DNA from: Bryum argenteum
Lineage: Eukaryota > Streptophyta > Bryopsida > Bryales > Bryaceae
Reading direction: 5' to 3'
Assembly: GCA_037043015.1 (NCBI GenBank)
Contig: CM073323.1
Span: 14,897,258 to 14,961,257, forward strand
DNA: 64,000 bases
A program made the translations under genes and the position numbers. Of the stretch, positions 11,589 through 40,296 are shown piece by piece. Under the pieces are notes generated by a model that worked only from the letters and a program-made list of their open reading frames with translations, was not told where the DNA came from and made no database searches. How positions within the stretch are numbered: the stretch's first letter is position 1; each line of letters opens with the position of its first letter.

Positions 11589-11932
11589 TTTACCCCTTAT
11601 ACGCCCATGGGGTCTGAAATTGTCAACCCAAAATTGGATCACTCCATCTTTTGGACTTGGGCATCATGAATGAACCAATCGATGATGAGCTTGCAACCTC
11701 CTACAAGGTTGGGTACAACCTCAATTTACCAACCACAACTCTTTCAAAGCACAAATCACTCATACAAATTGTGATTTGAATTGTAAAATTTCACTTTTTG
11801 AATGCATCGAAAGAAGAAGGTGACAAGTTTGACATCAAAATATAAATGAAAAGTTGAGTGTAGTGAGAGCTACGGAGCAAATTCTGTTGGAAAAAAAGGC
11901 CCCTCGGGCCTGCTTGGTCGTTTAAGGGTTAA
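11589..11932. mobile_element. TTAA-family MITE, 344 bp
   Basis: The left end TTTACCCCTTATACGCCCA and the right end, whose reverse complement is TTAACCCTTAAACGACCA, form a short inverted repeat. The right half is closely repeated at about 14820-15043, ending TTTAAGGGTTAACGG in both. Confidence 0.65.
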
Positions 11933-12654
11933 CGGATCTCAGATCATGCTGTAAATAGCAAGTCTTATGTTAAAAAGCCCGAAAAGAGGAACGTGACAAA
12001 CCAAATCGAAGACGAAGCGTGTGACCTTCGATGAATGATTCATGACAGAATGAATCGAGAGATGTTTTCTAAGATTTTTCAGAGCAAGAGTTTGGTCATG
12101 CACTCACTGTACAGAAGCAGCCACGAGTCTGGCCTTCTTCCAAGCCAAATGGCAACCGCTACACTTGTCGTAACCACAAACTCTTCACGTGTCTGGTTGG
12201 CGATCGAACTATGGAGCCGTGCTCATGCAGTTCCATGGCGACATATGAATGCTCACCATCCCACCATCGATTGTGTAACAAATTCATTTCCACTCTCACT
12301 TCTTGCTGCTTGCATTCGATTGATCGACCACACGCTTCGCTATTGGATCGTTATCTTCGCATTCCAGAATCAACTTAGCTCTCGAGGTACGGGCATTGCA
12401 TTGTCTTGTTGTGGTCACTGCAGTTCTAATGATTCGCAAGCTAAGATTTGAATAGTTTCTTTCTTTTCCTCGTCGTTGAAGCGTCAGCCTGACATGCATG
12501 GAAGTCGGATTGTGACTTTCTCTTACTGTTGTTATTGAAGCTATGGCGCCTATACCTTTCTCGGTTCTCGTAACTTGTAGAGAATCTAATACTGCTCACA
12601 TTCTCTGATCATTCACAGTAAGCCGCTGTTGTGTCGAATCGCAGTAAATTCAAC
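11933..12654 (+). promoter_or_regulatory. Upstream region of the aldo-keto reductase gene
   Basis: Non-repetitive sequence of higher GC between the TTAA element and the AKR start codon. A G-box core CACGTG sits at 12186-12191, about 465 bp upstream of the ATG. The transcription start cannot be placed; ATTCACAG at 12611-12618 could be the acceptor of a 5'UTR intron. Long plus-strand frames here have no recognisable protein content. Confidence 0.35.
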
Positions 12655-14269
12655 ATGGGGAAGGAAGCAATGGACGTGCCGAGGATGAAGCTGAACAATG
12701 GTACGGCGATTCCTGCGGTTGGACTCGGAACCTGGCAGTCGGAGCCTGGCCTCGTCAAACAGGCCGTCAAGGAAGCCGTCAAGGTTTGTATCACCTTGAT
12801 CACTTTCTCAATACTTTCTTGCTACAGAGTGACTGGCATACTCACTATCAGTATTGCTGACACTGCAGGTTGGATATCGCCACATTGATGGCGCGAAGGC
12901 ATACGGAAATGAGAAAGAGGTGAGTACCGTTTCTTTCGATCTTCATTTTAGCATGTCAATGGCGATCTTGCTCTAAACCCTAAACCCTTTTCTTGGTGTG
13001 TTTAGGTCGGTGAAGCGCTGCAAGAGCTTTACAAGGAGGGCGTCGTCAAGCGTGAAGACTTGTGGATCACATCCAAACTCTGGTAAGGCAGTATCCTATC
13101 ATGTTCGTTCATGAGACTGAGGGCTATTACATCATTCTGATTGCTACCTCGAATTATTTTTCTTCTTCCAGGTGCACTGATCACCATGATGTGGAAGGGG
13201 GTTTCCAAGGAACATTGGACAACCTGAATTGCGACTACCTTGACCTCTACCTGGTATCGTTACTATCACTTTCGTAACGTGTTCTGTTGTAATTCTTTTC
13301 TCTTTTTGTTTCTTATACGAGACAAATTAAGGGTTTTCTATTCTGTTTAAAGCCTTCTTTAAGGATGCTGAAACATTGTTATTGTCTGTGATTAGATGCA
13401 CTGGCCAGTGGCATTGAAGAAAGATTCAGAGGGGACGGCGCCAGAGGATTTCGCTCCCTTGGACATCAAGAAGACATGGACAGGCATGGAGAAACTGTAC
13501 AAGGACGGAAAAGTGAAGGCAATCGGAATCAGCAACTTCACCGTGGAGAAGACCAAAGAGTTGTTGTCGTACTGCGAAGTGAGACCGGCTGTGAATCAAG
13601 TGGAGTGTCATTGTCTGTGGCAGCAGAAGAAGTTGTGGCCTTACTTGAAGGCGGAAGGCATCCACTTGACGGTAACTACACAATCTTTCGTACTCTCGAG
13701 AAGCTTGTTTTGATGATTATACTGGTTCTAAAGGTTCATAAGGTTGTATGTTAATGGTTCTGATTGAATGGTATCATGCAGGCTTACTCTCCCATCGGTT
13801 CTTCGAACAGTCCATTTGCAACCATTAACGTCCTGGAGCTGCCAACGATCACAAAGCTTGCCGAGAAGTACAAGAGGTCGCCCGCACAAATTGCTCTTCG
13901 TTGGAACGTGCAGCAGGGCCATAGCGTATTGCCCAAGAGCACCCATGCTGAGAGGCTTGCGGAGAACATTAAGATCTTCGACTTTGAGATCTCGAAGGAA
14001 GATCTTGACGAATTCGACAAGATTGAGCAGGTATGTTACACACTCCTCTCTAATTTCTTTGCTTCTCTATGTCATAAACGGCTACTCCTCGAATGTTACT
14101 ATGAATGGTTTTACTTGTATCTTTCGATCATTGTTTTTGTAGTGAATCTGATAATGTTTTCTTTTCTTTATCTGTACAGCACCGTCTGCTACGAGGAGAT
14201 GAAATGTGGGTGAATGATACCACCAGTCCATACGAGACTGTTGAGGAGCTTTGGGATGGTGACATCTAG
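12655..14269 (+). CDS. Aldo-keto reductase (AKR4-like), NADPH-dependent, 7 coding exons
   Basis: Coding exons are 12655-12783, 12869-12919, 13006-13082, 13172-13253, 13396-13671, 13782-14030 and 14180-14269. All introns are GT-AG, and the joined product is 317 residues, usual for the family. The catalytic tetrad is complete: Asp50 and Tyr55 (HIDGAKAYGNE), Lys84 (ITSKLW) and His115 (MHWP). The N-terminal LNNGTAIPAVGLGTW starts the TIM barrel. GISNF, the LPKSTHAERLAENIKIF cofactor-binding stretch and the C-terminal PYETVEELWDGD are typical of plant AKR4-type enzymes. These reduce aldehydes and ketones such as reactive carbonyls in the cytosol with NADPH. There is no targeting peptide. The ATG at 12655 is chosen because it begins the conserved N-terminus. 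The exact substrate cannot be read from sequence; some relatives act in secondary metabolism. Confidence 0.95.
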
Positions 14270-14386
14270 AGTTGTAACAAACAACTTCTTACAGTGATAG
14301 ATGCATTGTAATGTATATGCGAGTGTAAAGCTTGTGCAGGCCTGCTACATGGGGCAATGGTGTATTACATCAATGGCCAACATTTC

Positions 14387-14392
14387 AATAAA
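14387..14392 (+). terminator. Poly(A) signal AATAAA of the AKR gene
   Basis: AATAAA lies 118 nt after the AKR stop codon, inside a TG- and T-rich stretch typical of a plant 3' end. It is the best candidate for the transcript end. Confidence 0.6.
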
Positions 14393-14635
14393 ATGACATT
14401 GTATACATAATTTACAATTTGTCTTGTCACAGTTATTATTATTATTTTATTTGGGTGGTGTATACCTGTTCGATGAATAATCCTGAGCTTGAATTGAAAC
14501 AAACCAGGGAGAATGATTCAATTGGCCATGGCTATCATAGAATATCGCTTGCTTGTCTATTTCGGTGTGAAACATGAGTTTTTACTTTGATCTCACTCTC
14601 CAATGAAAATTGCATGCAAGGGCATTAATTCATTA

Positions 14636-14819
14636 GAGGCCTGGGATCCTGGGGAGTTCTAGGGGGACAAGAGGCCGTCACGGCTTGGAGGGATTTATCC
14701 CATACTCTTTGGAGCCGCTTCCTCTCCCTAAAAAGTATAAGAGGGTTGGGGGTAGGGTCAGACGGGATGTGGGATAAATCCCTCCAAGGTGCTCCAAAGA
14801 GTATGGGATAAATCCACAA
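14636..14819. repeat. Compound hairpin, MITE-like
   Basis: Two overlapping inverted repeats share a left side. CTTGGAGGGATTTATCCC (14684-14701) pairs with 14771-14788; the stretch 14693-14715 (ATTTATCCCATACTCTTTGG and three more bases) pairs with 14791-14813. One arm can therefore form either of two alternative stems. No coding sequence. Confidence 0.6.
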
Positions 14820-15043
14820 GGTTATGTACAACCCCAACCTACCTACCACAATCCTTTCAAACCATAAAATCATACATACAAATTGTGGTTTGAATTGTGA
14901 AATTTCACTTTTTGAATGCATCAGAAGGAGGTGACCAGTTTGACATCAAAATATAAGTGAAAAGTTGATTACAGTGAGAGCTACAGAGCAGATTCTGTTG
15001 GAATCATGCCCCTCGGGCTGGCTTGGGCGTTTAAGGGTTAACG
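14820..15043. mobile_element. TTAA-family MITE, right part
   Basis: Closely similar to 11700-11932, ending GGGCGTTTAAGGGTTAA. The left end is missing, apparently replaced by the hairpin sequence at 14636-14819. Confidence 0.6.
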
Positions 15044-34200: not shown

Positions 34201-35428
34201 GACAATCATATTATCCCTGACTCGATCTGCCATGACTTAACTTACTGAGAGTACACGTTGAATCTGCTCAGGCTTAACTGCGAAAAGGTTGACCAGCAAA
34301 TTCTGTAGATTGCACGCACGATTTTGAGTAAAACAGACAAGCTTTCCAGGCACATCGCGTTACAGTGATTATATCTGGTTAATCATTCTCGATTTCTCGT
34401 GCGTGATCATTAAACTGTGTAGTTACGGATTGGATGTCAAGACTGTACAAAAGGCAGTTGGTATGTGGCAAACAGTAAATCGTCTGGCAATGCTGTTAAG
34501 ACTGAAGAGTCTCAGATGCTTTTAACAACAATGATGCAGTCGATTTATCATAATACGACAGAGAAGTCTACCTCTCATGTAACTTTATGACTCTGTAACT
34601 GTACTCTTACACATGCCTTGCAGCCTGGAACTAACCAGATTGATGATTCAGTGATGGTCTGAGGCATAACAAAGATTGATCACCTCCAGAGTATCAACCA
34701 CATTATCTACATATGCGCAACATTATGATCCTTGCAGACTCTGATCGCAAGCAAGCAAGTCCAGGGGACGACTTTGGGAATGTACAGTACATTAAGTAGC
34801 TACAGGTGCACCTTTCGTCAATCGGCTAATTCTTCTGAACATAATGAAATCTTCTAACGGCGACAACCTAGTTCATTCTCTATCAACGTCGTTTAGTTCC
34901 TGTTACAGAGAACAGCTTCTGTAACGGCGCACCGCATTTGATTCTCGTTCATCTTGCTCACCTGCGCTCACTGGTTGACTTCATCTCAACTCTATCTCAC
35001 TGCATCGAATTCCCTGCAATCGATCGATTGTAATCTTCGGTAGCTAGCTTACTACCGAAGCGTAAGGAAAAAAGTCTGAAGGTAACCAATTAGCTCATGT
35101 TCTTGAAACGTCGAAGATTACCAGAATTGGATCGAGCTTTCTAAATCGAGCTTCATGCAAGTGGTAGACAACTTGCGGAACAGTAAGCAATGAACACTGT
35201 GAATCAATGCCAGGATCGATCAAATTGAAACTGTTGTTATGTACACCAACTCACGGGCAGTACGGCACAGTCTAATCCAAGATTAGTAAATAGGTGTCTG
35301 TCATGATTAAGCAAGTTTACACCGACCACGGGTACTAACTTGCAGACACAACGCATTCAGTAGAGAAGCACACCCTGCAGTTTCTCATTGTGTACAATAC
35401 TAGCAATTTTCAAAAGTAAAAGCTCGCT
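31209..35428. other. Gene-free stretch
   Basis: About 4.2 kb. 32390-32625 contains two loose copies of the CACTA-like end CAACTCTTGT-AGTGTATA. 32800-35400 has the mixed composition of low-copy DNA but no frame with recognisable content; a non-coding transcript cannot be excluded. Confidence 0.35.
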
Positions 35429-36097: not shown

Positions 36098-38675
36098 TTA
36101 CGCCGCTCCCACACCAAGAAAATCAATGAAATGAAGTGGTGCGGTGGACCCTGACTGAGGTGGTGGCACTTCTGAGATACGAATCTCGTATTTGTCACTA
36201 GAGGCACTGCTGTCTTTGCAGAGCCTATCATGGCTGGATGTCAAAGGCACAGGAGCCCAGGTGCCGACCTGATTCGATGTATGAAAAGCTGGGGCACCTC
36301 GAGTGCTGCCAATTTGTTGCTGAAATCTGTAGTTATGGTCGCCGGTAGAAGGGCTAATGAAAGGGTTGGGGAGGGAAGGGGTCCAGTGAGAGGCAGTGCC
36401 GGCGTAGCTCAAGCTTCCTCGAAGTGTTGTCTTCAGCCCAACGAAGGAAGCTGCACTAGTGCTGTCTGGTGCAGGAGGGAGTGGCAACGTCGCGCCCTTC
36501 TCCGCACACGCCTCGGCGGCCCTCGTGAGTAGCCCTGCTGTGATCTCGCTGTCTAGATGCGCGTAGAGCAGCTGCTGCTTCTCGACATTTGAAGTTGAAC
36601 TTGGCAAGTACACGGGCCTCCTGCCACCTGCACAATACATCAGATACCAATTAGTTCTCTATAGAAACACAACTGTTGAAGGCTTTGAAAGCTCTGAACA
36701 CGTCTGATCGGGATAAAAAAGAACAACAATTACTCAGAATGCCAGGTCCGTTTGAGCAGTAACGAAGCTGCAGTAACGAAGCTGCAATCTGGAACTGTGC
36801 AGAGCTTTACTAAAGAATCAGTTCTAATCGAGCATTGACTATGATATATATCGCTGACAGGTTCGGAAAAAACAATGCCAACAAGTCTAAGTTACGCCAG
36901 GTCCTTGTTGGTCATTATGTGGTAGCTCAGATCAGGTACTTGAAACAGTGAAGAAACTTATAAGAAAGAAACCTGACAGTTGTAGAAACTAGTGCAACAA
37001 GGATCAGTAATCTCAACGGATCTGTGATCTGCATCGAAGGTGCAGAACATTATTGAGGGCTTGAACAATGAAAGTTAGAGAAGGGGCTAGTACCTGCAAT
37101 GACAGCCCCGAAGGACGGTGAAGGTATTGGAGTGGTGATCGAAGCGGCCCCAAAGTTGGCAAGGTTCACCGAATCGCTCCGCGGCGACAAGCTGGACACA
37201 TCGCTGATCGAGCTGGTATGCTTGCCCTGTGCTGCAAGGGGCGGCGACTCCGCTAGATCGTCGGAGTGTTTCGCCGTGGGCGACGAATCTCCTGAGTGAT
37301 GGTTTAGTCCGGCGATACTGTTACTTCTGTTGTGTCTAGCCTTGATGCCGCGGCGATTGTTCGCCTGGGTCGTTGCTTTGCTGCGACGGTTGTTGGCTCG
37401 CGACCGCTCCCGCAGCTTCCTCGCCATGACTACATGCCAGTGATTCTTCACTGCGTTGTCTGTGCGCCCCGGAAACAGACGCGCGATCATGGCCCACTTG
37501 TTGCCGTGGAAGCGGTGCGCGGCTAGTAGCCGCTCCTCTTCTTCCTCCGTGAATGGACGCCGGTTGATCCGAGGGTCCAGCTGATTGAACCACCGTAGCC
37601 TGCAGCTTTTCCCTGTACAGTCCACACCGATCATCGTGCACTGCGTCAGTACAATCTGCAAATGTACGTCACAACTTGCCCATCACTGCACTAGTACTAG
37701 GAAATAAACAACTTTCGAAAAACTCTTCATTTAAGACGCTCCTCAACTACAATCCGTATGGTTCTGCGGACGGTTTCAGTTTTCGGATGTCCCCTCGAAG
37801 TAAGTACCCTGTGTTCCACCTTCCATCCGCCCGCCGGCCCTGAAGATTTTACTAGTTTTCAATATCTAGTTTTCAGCTCCAGCTTTAGATCCGATATTAG
37901 ATAATGGTTCGAGCTGTATCGGATGGGCGCCCATGCACTGATACCCCGGCAAGTTGTAGAACTCGTGGCGACGGTGCATTACCTTGACTACTTTGTGACT
38001 TGGAGACTGTAACTAGACAAAATGTTATCGGAATACGTGATGCTGTCAGTCTGTTTTGGAACGGGAAGGTAAGCACACAACCCAGATACGGTGAAGAAGT
38101 GCAGTACCTGATCGACCCTGAAGTTTCTCCGCAATCAGGTTCCAGTTCTGGGGACCGTACTGCGATACAAGCTCCCGGAGCTTATCGTCTTCCGCGGGGC
38201 GCCAGTGACCCCGGGGACACAGCTTGGACTGCACACTCTCGCCATCTCGACCTAGAAAAGTGACCATCTCCATGTCCTCGTGGGAGTCTTTCCTGTCGTC
38301 ATCCAAGCTAATACCGTTTTCCATGTCGTCGTCATCGCCGTTGCAACTCTCTACGGACAACATCCGCCACGCGCGCTCGTCGGCCGACATATCGACGAGC
38401 GCGTGGAAAGGGATCCTCCCGGAGTCGCCTGCCGCTGGGGTGCCTGTGTCGGACCCAGAGTTCGAGGTTCTCTCGCCGTCGGTCACCGACGAGAACCCCG
38501 GCTTCGTCTGAAACAGCGAATTTGTGGTCTTTACGATGAAGCCGTTTTCCACAATTTGGCCTTTCTGAAACAATCGCATCCTTTCAGCTTCCTCGGCGAA
38601 GCTGTGAAGCTGGCCCAGGATCGACTTGTTGGCGCCGCTGCTGGACCAGTTACCCCTCTCTTCCATTACCATCAT
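36098..38675 (-). CDS. R2R3-MYB transcription factor, subgroup 21 (MYB52/54/56/105/117 type)
   Basis: Coding exons on the minus strand are 38675-38108, 37612-37094 and 36627-36098. Both introns (495 and 466 bp) are GT-AG and phase 1, and the product is 538 residues. R2 begins at [14 protein letters not shown] (Trp158, Trp178, Trp197); R3 has Phe210, Trp229 and Trp248 with [14 protein letters not shown] and [34 protein letters not shown] marks subgroup 21, as does the C-terminal [10 protein letters not shown]. The first intron splits the Gly190 codon before KSCRLRW, a standard MYB position; the usual second intron inside R3 is absent. Residues 1-154 are a long N-terminal region with an acidic patch (DDDD at 114-117). 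The family are nuclear DNA-binding regulators of organ boundaries, cell walls and growth. The ATG at 38675 is supported by an in-frame TAA at about 38713. A miR156-type site and an upstream ORF precede it. Confidence 0.93.
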
Positions 38676-38700: not shown

Positions 38701-38748
38701 CTACACTTGGGTTAACCTTGCAGCCAACTGACAGAAGAGAGAGAGCAT
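38701..38748 (-). promoter_or_regulatory. Upstream ORF (15 codons) in the MYB leader
   Basis: ATG at 38748-38746 opens a 15-codon frame (MLSLFCQLAARLTQV) that ends at TAG 38703-38701, 25 nt before the MYB start codon. If the leader reaches this far, scanning ribosomes meet this ATG first and MYB translation would need leaky scanning or reinitiation. The ATG is part of the miR156-type site. Confidence 0.45.
38729..38748 (-). promoter_or_regulatory. Candidate miR156/miR529 target site in the MYB 5' leader
   Basis: The mRNA strand reads ATGCTCTCTCTCTTCTGTCA. It pairs with miR156 (TGACAGAAGAGAGTGAGCAC as DNA) at all but two positions, miRNA nucleotides 14 and 20; a mismatch at 14 is the normal state of SPL target sites. 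Pairing is perfect across the cleavage position (10-11). The preceding bases CGGGC partly extend toward an miR529-type pairing. No matching star arm lies within several hundred bases on either side, so this is a possible target and not a MIR locus. Confidence 0.55.
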
Positions 38749-40296
38749 GCCCGATGTGGAGAGCACAATAAGTTTTTCTGGGTGAAGGAAGCTACACTCG
38801 TCGACGGCCGGCCTTCCGGCACATTTCCTAGTTTCACTCGCCAGAATCGTCGTGATGCAATGTGCCCAACGAGCAGGAATTTGACTTACTAGTGCGCAAA
38901 ATCACAAAAATTGGTCATGAGCATACTGTCAAAACCACTCTAGCTTCGATTTCAATTGATGCCTCTACGCAACACTCCGGCGTCCGTTGATCTTCCCTAG
39001 CGACCCTAACGAGCTTGTTGTTCGGAATCCCGTCTCGCCCGGACCAATGTAATGTTCGTCATGAGAGCTTCTAATGGCTATTGGCTCCGCCTCCGAAACC
39101 ACCCATTGGAACTCAACGATCACACGAATCTAAACGAAACCATCCGCACCTGAGAAGCTAGTACAGTACATTTGTCAGCAAGGAGAGGATTCGGGAAAAC
39201 TCCGGGGACTAAAGTTGTTCATGTCTATCACATTCTTGGCCAGTACATTGCAAGTTTCCAAAGATCCTTCCGCCGGCGTCGCCTGCTCAGAGCCCCGTAC
39301 TATATTTCAAGCACAAGCGTGCAGTTGCTGGCGAGCTGCTGCTGCGCTTTGCTTTCCATGTACATTCACGAGCTGCTAGCCACGTTGCGGGATGCGAGTG
39401 GTACTTAGCATATCTCGCGATGAGGCAGTGTTGCAGTGGAAGAGCCCGGGGGGCTATGTAGGCTTCTGTGATGAAGACGCAAGGAGCGTGGATAGGACAA
39501 GGGCAAGAAATGGAGCAGAAGACGAGGAAGAAAAGAACGACGGAGGGCAACAGCAACAGCGGCAGCAACAGCGGCAGCAACAGCAGCAAACATGCACACA
39601 AGTGGGGCCACAGAAAGAGTACTACACTACGCAGAGTGATGCACGGCTTTGCCCGCCGGCTCCTTCACCGAAGGTGCCCGAACGCTTGCAGCACAACCCA
39701 AACTGGAGAACGACGACGTTCGACGACAACAAAAGTGCTCTCAATGAATAGAAAAGGCAGCCTGACAACAAGGGTAGATATAATGCTAATAAGAGCATGT
39801 AAGTTTCGGCCCCCGGAACATTGAAATGTTTGGAAGCATAGTAAAGTAAACAGCTAAAGTAAGGACGAGGACGAAGAAGAAGTAGAAGTAGAAGACTGCC
39901 CTCGGACAGAACTACACCAACAGAAAATAAAGGGAATGACTGACCCCATGCATCCAACGGTGGAGGTGAAGGATGATCCAAGCTTGGTGCTACCCCAACG
40001 TGCAACGGCTGATTCTTATGCTTTTGTTGTTGCAGGAATTGGAGGGGAGGACAAAGTTTTTGCCCTTCCATGCACTGGCTGCTTGTTCATTCCTCTCACC
40101 AAGATTTTACATCAAATAGTACGAACTTATCGCACGACTCAAAATCTCGGGCACAATATCTCTTAGCATACAGAAACTGGTTGGAGGAAAAAAAATTAAA
40201 AAAATCAAACACTTTGCAAATTTATGAGAAAGGAACTTGTGGACTCTTTCTTGCTTTCATGGCACGGAATATTTTGTTTTACTGGTGAAATCTGCT
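38749..40296 (-). promoter_or_regulatory. MYB promoter/leader region
   Basis: Relatively GC-rich, low-copy DNA upstream of MYB. It contains a CAG/CGG-type trinucleotide stretch (about 39548-39590, CAACAGCGGCAG units) and GAAGAAGTAGAAGTAGAAG at about 39876-39895. Long frames on both strands here are products of these repeats and of low complexity. The transcription start could not be fixed. Confidence 0.3.

Follow-up and report, generated by a model that had tools for sequence, protein, structure and literature searches.

A candidate miR156 target site that opens a short upstream reading frame in the leader of an R2R3-MYB gene of the moss Bryum argenteum

Does the leader of a moss MYB gene contain a miR156 target site of the kind found in SPL genes, or has this sequence arisen by chance or been kept for another reason? 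The question is raised by a 20-mer, ATGCTCTCTCTCTTCTGTCA, in the leader of a three-exon R2R3-MYB gene which lies in a stretch of 64,000 nucleotides (C3:14897258-14961257 of a 258.8-Mb genome in 25 contigs), called here the window. A sequence-only reading of the window had taken the 20-mer for an SPL-type miR156 site. The coordinates of the main features are collected in Table 1.

Table 1. Positions of the site, of the MYB gene and of the exact genomic matches (window numbering unless a contig is named)
Feature	Position	Strand	Basis
miR156-type target site ATGCTCTCTCTCTTCTGTCA	38729..38748	-	sequence match and pairing
Predicted miR156 slicing	between 38739 and 38738, leaving a 3' fragment from 38738 on	-	derived from pairing (miRNA nt 10/11)
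Predicted miR529 slicing	3' fragment would start at 38742	-	derived from pairing
Island, 26 nt, identical in the paralogous C4 MYB leader	38723..38748	-	sequence comparison
uORF, 15 codons and stop, MLSLFCQLAARLTQV	38701..38748	-	site bases 1-3 serve as its start codon
Coding part of MYB exon 1: N-terminus plus most of the R2 repeat; start codon 38675	38108..38675	-	
Coding part of MYB exon 2: remainder of R2, the R3 repeat and what follows	37094..37612	-	splice sites by eye, preserving frame and MYB domain
Coding part of MYB exon 3, down to the stop codon	36098..36627	-	exon joins inferred from sequence
Places of the 19-mer	window MYB leader; C4 MYB leader 13736985-13737003; SPL C4 26675245; SPL C7 10926677		exact genome search

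The gene carries two adjacent Myb repeats (PF00249, 2 stretches, E 9.8e-36, in the 269-aa part scanned with Pfam) and is thus an R2R3-MYB. Pfam shows Myb families alone in this part, and the gene is absent from the 19 SBP exon matches of the genome: it is without an SBP domain, hence not an SPL gene by the domain criterion. The splice sites were read by eye, those of exons 1 and 2 being backed by the continuous MYB domain; the coding sequence joined from the exons inferred in this way would be 1617 nt long, with 538 codons before the stop. From the resemblance of 42 protein letters, we take the gene to be akin to subgroup 21 (LOF1/MYB52/54/105/117). This group of MYB genes is linked in Arabidopsis to organ boundaries. 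We noticed, about 1.5 kb downstream of the window MYB (counted from its stop codon) and on the corresponding side of its paralogue on C4 (locus L044), a 24-nt stretch, TCTGTAACTGTA.TCTTACACATG (34592-34615; L044:3621-3644), which is identical at 23 of 24 positions between the two loci and is a possible 3' UTR or downstream element.

The site is separated by 53 nt from the MYB start codon at 38675. Its position had been given correctly before, but the distance of 54 nt then quoted is a coordinate difference and not the gap. An in-frame stop is found 39 nt upstream of the main ATG, between the site and the main ORF, and in-frame stops occur between the site and the main ATG in the C4 paralogue too. 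Because this stop intervenes, the site belongs to the leader and not to the main coding frame if the ATG at 38675 is used. The window holds no second match to the 20-mer at up to 3 mismatches, and 100 shuffles gave 0. No inverted 20-mer within 400 nt comes closer to the site than 8 mismatches, which rules out a MIR gene or an inverted repeat at the site, in agreement with the earlier statement that no hairpin partner is near.

We then asked how often the sequence is met in the whole genome. The 19-mer TGCTCTCTCTCTTCTGTCA has exactly four matches in 258.8 Mb (Table 1) while the reversed pattern has 0, and Markov models of order 1 to 3 trained on the window predict 0.002-0.003 occurrences; since these models take no account of how pyrimidine tracts cluster, we give more weight to the reversed pattern as a control. 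This occurrence is far beyond chance. At 2 mismatches the SPL-form pattern is found at 24 places, against 17 for its reversed control: these matches are near background and carry no information. The complement of miR156 (19-mer) matches 16 places when 2 mismatches are allowed (reversed control, 3) and 8 places when 1 is allowed, namely two MIR156 hairpins, two SPL genes, two MYB genes, one TAS6/TAS3-like locus and one place behind a COI1-like ORF. A miRNA isoform matching the site perfectly was rejected: the sequence that it would have, TGACAGAAGAGAGAGAGCA, is present in the assembly solely as the opposite strand of the four sites.

The genome contains 11 SBP loci (obtained by grouping the 19 exon matches manually), only two of which have the exact site. 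In both of them (on C4 and C7) the site lies in an open frame reading SGRALSLLSSQ, whereas the reading frame opened by the MYB site starts with MLSLFCQ. The flanks and the reading frame thus differ, and this rules out that the MYB site is a copied SPL exon. Two further observations concern the SPL family. Firstly, SPL genes on C7 (L046:2761-2780) and C5 (L050; C5:3808594-3808612, minus strand) share the motif GTGTTCTCTCTCC[C/T]CTGTCA, 1.1-1.6 kb before the SBP exon; it is a weak miR156-like site with scores of 4.5 and 3.0 (scores are explained below), perhaps located in the leaders. Secondly, the SPL locus L045 (C7:10908000-10917999), 13 kb from the site-bearing SPL gene of C7 (L047), repeats part of it at 98-99% identity, over about 4.8 kb. 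The stretch common to both stops about 640 bases short of the miR156 site of L047, and in L045 itself no site is present (best match in its 10 kb, 7 mismatches); on this comparison L045 looks like a recent tandem copy without the site.

The best miR156 site among those scored is neither in an SPL nor in a MYB gene: GTGTTCACTCTCTTCTGTCA (L023:1500-1519; C10:14217354-14217372, plus strand) has a single G:U pair at nt 17, a score of 0.5, and lies 213 nt past the stop codon of an ORF (L023:192-1286) which we take to resemble the COI1 receptor. Pfam gave no match for this ORF. It has four paralogues, at 53-65% identity, near which the genome searches found no site within 2 mismatches. At locus L008, a miR156 site has two miR390-like sites behind it, spaced by 212 nt and differing from the query form at 3 and 7 positions, and only weak miR529-like sites before it; the locus may correspond to the moss TAS6/TAS3 loci described in PMC5907777. 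A pattern for other TAS3 loci had one match, on C8. Two places come close to the sequence of moss miR534, at 1 and 2 mismatches; its reversed control gave none. The SBP loci, miR156, the two miR529 isoforms, L008 and these miR534 matches together fit a moss, and a grass origin is disfavoured by the number of SBP loci, 11, and of exact sites among them, two.

Which miRNA would be the guide? Pairing was scored with a scheme modelled on psRNATarget. With miR156, both MYB sites have mismatches at nt 14 and 20 only and score 2.0, and in the window MYB the complementarity covers nt 2-13 and the slicing position, as it does in miR156 targets. The two SPL sites score 1.0 and share the mismatch at nt 14, so that the usual mismatch of SPL sites, which the sequence-only reading had pointed out, is indeed there, together with the one at nt 20 which it had not mentioned. 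The latter is due to an A at the 5' end of the MYB site, where both SPL sites carry G. This A costs one pair with miR156 and creates the start of the uORF, and it is kept in both MYB genes. Two MIR156 hairpins were found (L005 and L006, on C2 and C3), the 150-nt stretches of which fold at -70.4 and -58.9 kcal/mol. They were judged by folding because Rfam, run at gathering thresholds on ten loci, gave no match even though two of the ten hold these hairpins.

The overlapping miR529 had also been proposed to act on the site. MIR529 hairpins for two isoforms (AGAAGAGAGAGAGTACAGCCC and CGAAGAGAGAGAGCACAGCCC), 193 nt apart, are present on C8 (L057 and L058, C8:2131425-2131635), and pattern matches indicate a similar pair 13 kb away on the other strand and a third group at C10:960313-960549. 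The two isoforms score 2.5 and 3.0 on the C4 MYB and 1.5-3.0 on the two SPL genes, and PMC8541648 calls MYB genes targets of miR529 in Marchantia. On the window MYB, however, they score 4.5 and 5.0, with mismatches at nt 16-18, against 2.0 for miR156. Moreover, the bases opposite the whole of miR156 are all kept between the two MYB genes while some of those opposite the 3' half of miR529 differ, and miR156 is favoured for this reason. Pairing and conservation taken together point to miR156 as the guide; that miR529 is the main guide in its place is unlikely, and its share in the control is less well supported than had been supposed. The likelihoods of the two readings overlap, since both miRNAs could act.

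The conservation itself was evaluated with the C4 gene, a paralogue whose N-terminus reads MVVMEERGN (MMVMEERGN in the window) and whose MYB domain hardly differs. An alignment of 255 codons, from exon 1 and from 80 codons of exon 2, gives an amino-acid identity of 0.73; fourfold sites are identical in 38 cases out of 86 (44%) and the NG86 dS is 1.50. Judging from this divergence, the two genes are old duplicates. Their leaders are nearly unalignable except at the site, where 26 nt out of 26 are identical. In 1000 pairs of dinucleotide-shuffled leaders the longest common run was 15 (mean 9.2). When the C4 locus (10 kb) is compared with the window by blastn, the island is recovered at 100% identity (E 1.4e-7), above the 84% and 87% of the two MYB-domain exons, all three being among the best 40 matches listed. 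These best 40 further include repeat-like matches at 11.6-15.0 kb and three matches at 53-54 kb, and the remaining upstream ones among them span 14 nt (E 2.0) and 15 nt (E 0.5). Such a retention of 26 nt out of 26 at a dS of 1.5, for two paralogues of one genome, is what selection on the island would leave.

Downstream of the island, the two leaders lose their resemblance within about 20 nt: by eye, one can follow (TGC)AAGGTYAACSCAA with a 3-nt gap keeping the frame of the uORF. The conservation also extends 6 nt (GTTGGC) past the miR156 footprint. As miR156 does not explain these 6 nt, they count against the miR156 reading. The MYB paralogues of C2 and C5 are without the site (best match of 7 mismatches in the 2.5 and 2.6 kb examined, and none within 2 mismatches in the genome-wide search), which would mean either that the site was gained before the split of the window and C4 genes or that it was lost in the C2/C5 pair. 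That two of the four close paralogues have no such sequence is another point against the miR156 reading.

Other common sequences were noticed in these neighborhoods. A 14-nt run, GTTTAGATTCGTGT (39122-39135; L044:7239-7252), lies upstream of both site-bearing MYB genes, 387 nt (window) and 247 nt (C4) above the site; it is the sole other common run of at least 11 nt in the 600 nt above the sites and may be due to chance or be a second upstream element. The leaders of the site-less paralogues on C2 and C5 (L053 and L054) have TTGTTGACTTGCCTGCAA and CTGGTCAACTCGT in common amid divergent sequence, as seen by eye. Finally, sequence within 11594-15041 recurs at 87-92% identity in L044:377-742, next to the C4 paralogue: it is probably a repeat or transposon present in both neighborhoods, on two chromosomes.

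The main mechanical rival of the miR156 reading is a 3' splice site. The island would then be the end of a 5'-UTR intron, that is a polypyrimidine tract followed by the cut between CTCTCTCTCTTCTGTCAG and TTGGC, and its likeness to a miR156 site would be a by-product. It does read as a plant 3' splice site (TCTCTCTCTTCTGTCAG before TT), and donor-like sequences lie further upstream, GTAAGT at 142 nt in the window gene and GTGAGG at 125 nt in C4. If splicing took place at the CAG of the island, the site would be lost from the mRNA, and it could be that some transcripts lose it in this way. Pyrimidine tracts, however, can swap C and T freely: in these two genes the final 26 nt of intron 1 agree at 7 positions only, against 26 for the island, and the 3' ends of intron 1 agree at 7-15 positions out of 26 in all six pairs of the four MYB paralogues. 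Neither the identity to two SPL sites nor the absence of other exact copies is explained by splicing. Splicing alone would thus not account for the conservation of the island, and we consider this origin quite improbable.

A further rival is an element acting at the level of DNA or of RNA structure: either a pyrimidine patch of the promoter or a stem between the site and the coding start which hides the start codon. In both genes the predicted fold does bring the site into a duplex with the purine-rich beginning of the MYB coding sequence. This duplex is not clearly stronger than those formed by shuffled sequences, since a fraction of 0.15 and 0.20 of 500 mononucleotide shuffles of the start regions reach its strength, and we dropped the idea of a conserved structure between the site and the start codon. 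A promoter patch, for its part, has no need of the exact SPL sequence. Little credence can be given to this explanation, the one we find hardest to believe. The predicted folding nevertheless has a bearing on the miR156 reading: the site is largely paired, with a mean unpaired probability of 0.16 (window gene) and 0.26 (C4) against 0.40 and 0.37 for the folded region, and such a low predicted accessibility would weigh somewhat against an open target site.

There remains the uORF. The claim that the ATG of the site opens a reading frame of 15 codons ending 25 nt upstream of the main ATG proved right, and the start and the frame are also kept in the C4 paralogue, where the uORF reads MLSLFCQLARSTQINT before its stop. 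The main ATG follows after 73 nt in the window gene and after 82 nt in C4, each distance being 1 modulo 3. The first residues, MLSLFCQL, are identical in both uORFs, at the nucleotide level too, and the part downstream is partly conserved. The overlap of the uORF with the miR156-type site is real; from it we infer that cleavage and uORF translation could jointly control the leader.

One may suppose that the island was kept for the uORF peptide (MLSLFCQLA.R.TQ) and that the miR156 match is secondary or coincidental. A constraint on the peptide could explain why the conservation runs past the site into GTTGGC and why the frame is preserved through the 3-nt gap, and it would fit with the same start and the same relation to the main ATG in both genes. 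It would nevertheless let third positions drift, as they have done in the coding region (44% fourfold identity), whereas there are zero synonymous differences in 26 nt. It does not predict the sequence of an SPL site either, and the C-terminal parts of the uORFs differ (AARLTQV and ARSTQINT). We therefore hold this origin of the conservation to be very unlikely. It resembles the conserved-peptide uORFs of plants in being short and in keeping its start and frame, here in two paralogues; the present one has its start codon inside a miRNA site and is known from two sequences only.

We conclude that the 5' leader of the window MYB probably holds a functional and selectively kept miR156 target site, its function being a prediction. 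The proposal of an SPL-type miR156 site in this leader is upheld: the site matches exactly two SPL sites of the same genome, MIR156 genes are present, and 26 nt out of 26 are kept in an ancient paralogue. The site, its conservation in two paralogues and the presence of MIR156 and SPL partners in the same genome are established by the sequence; that the leader is transcribed and unspliced, that slicing occurs there and that the uORF has any effect is what we infer. miR156 produced from at least two MIR156 hairpins would pair with the MYB leader much as it does with SPL mRNAs, and slicing about 60 nt before the MYB start codon would remove the cap and silence the MYB wherever miR156 is abundant. 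The AUG of the site would open a short uORF, probably lowering the translation of transcripts which escape slicing, and miR529 may also take part in the control. The site would date back to the gene from which the window MYB and its C4 paralogue descend and have been kept in both after the ancient duplication, and miR156 probably controls both genes. A broader reading, which we advance tentatively and to which we give less than even weight, is that in mosses miR156 has since ancient times acted on a second kind of transcription factor, a MYB clade parallel to SPL and TAS6, and that the site is the start of a conserved uORF, initiation and slicing competing on one 20-nt element.

Compared with the miR156/miR529-SPL module of land plants, the miRNA is the same, 19 nt out of 19 are common with two SPL genes of this genome and the usual mismatch at nt 14 is found. 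The target, however, is an R2R3-MYB, the site is in the 5' leader rather than in the coding region, an A in place of G at its 5' end makes a start codon, and the pairing with miR529 is weaker in the window gene. Moss TAS6, described in PMC3565333 as a sliced miR156/miR529 target and in PMC5907777 as part of TAS6/TAS3 loci across mosses, is likewise a miR156 target other than SPL, with L008 as the candidate locus here; it is non-coding and makes ta-siRNAs, whereas here we deal with the mRNA of a transcription factor.

The known link of miRNAs with MYB genes in bryophytes through miR319 is alike in that a miRNA controls a MYB, and differs in the miRNA. The MYB genes targeted by miR319 are of a different, GAMYB-like group. 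Control of a MYB by miR319 is described for Physcomitrium and Marchantia in PMC4957126 and PMC10721683. Another related case, matched by description only, is that of miR529 and MYB in Marchantia polymorpha, which also joins the miR156/529 family to MYB targets in a bryophyte: section 2.6 of PMC8541648 (Xie et al. 2021) counts many MYB genes of Marchantia among the targets of miR529, with reference to Lin et al. 2016, and says that Marchantia has no miR156. PMC10841014 and PMC10721683 tie the Marchantia MYB21 to miR319 and miR529c to SPL2. The miR529-MYB statement, itself unconfirmed, lowers the novelty of a link between miR156 and MYB. In the open-licence PMC literature, a limited set of which partial texts were available, we found no report of miR156 control of a subgroup 21 MYB, which fits the earlier assertion that no such control is established, the Marchantia report on miR529 apart.

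miR156 and miR529 are described as regulators of SPL genes which time developmental phases, the exception in moss being the non-coding TAS6 (PMC3565333). According to PMC9516144 and PMC10721683, miR156 of Physcomitrium promotes the transition from filament to leafy shoot, a direction opposite to that in flowering plants and in Marchantia. If the reading proposed here is true, a second client of miR156 kept by selection, a MYB, would offer a testable reason for the differing response of mosses, and a start codon placed within a miRNA site would be a natural system for asking if scanning ribosomes and slicing interfere.
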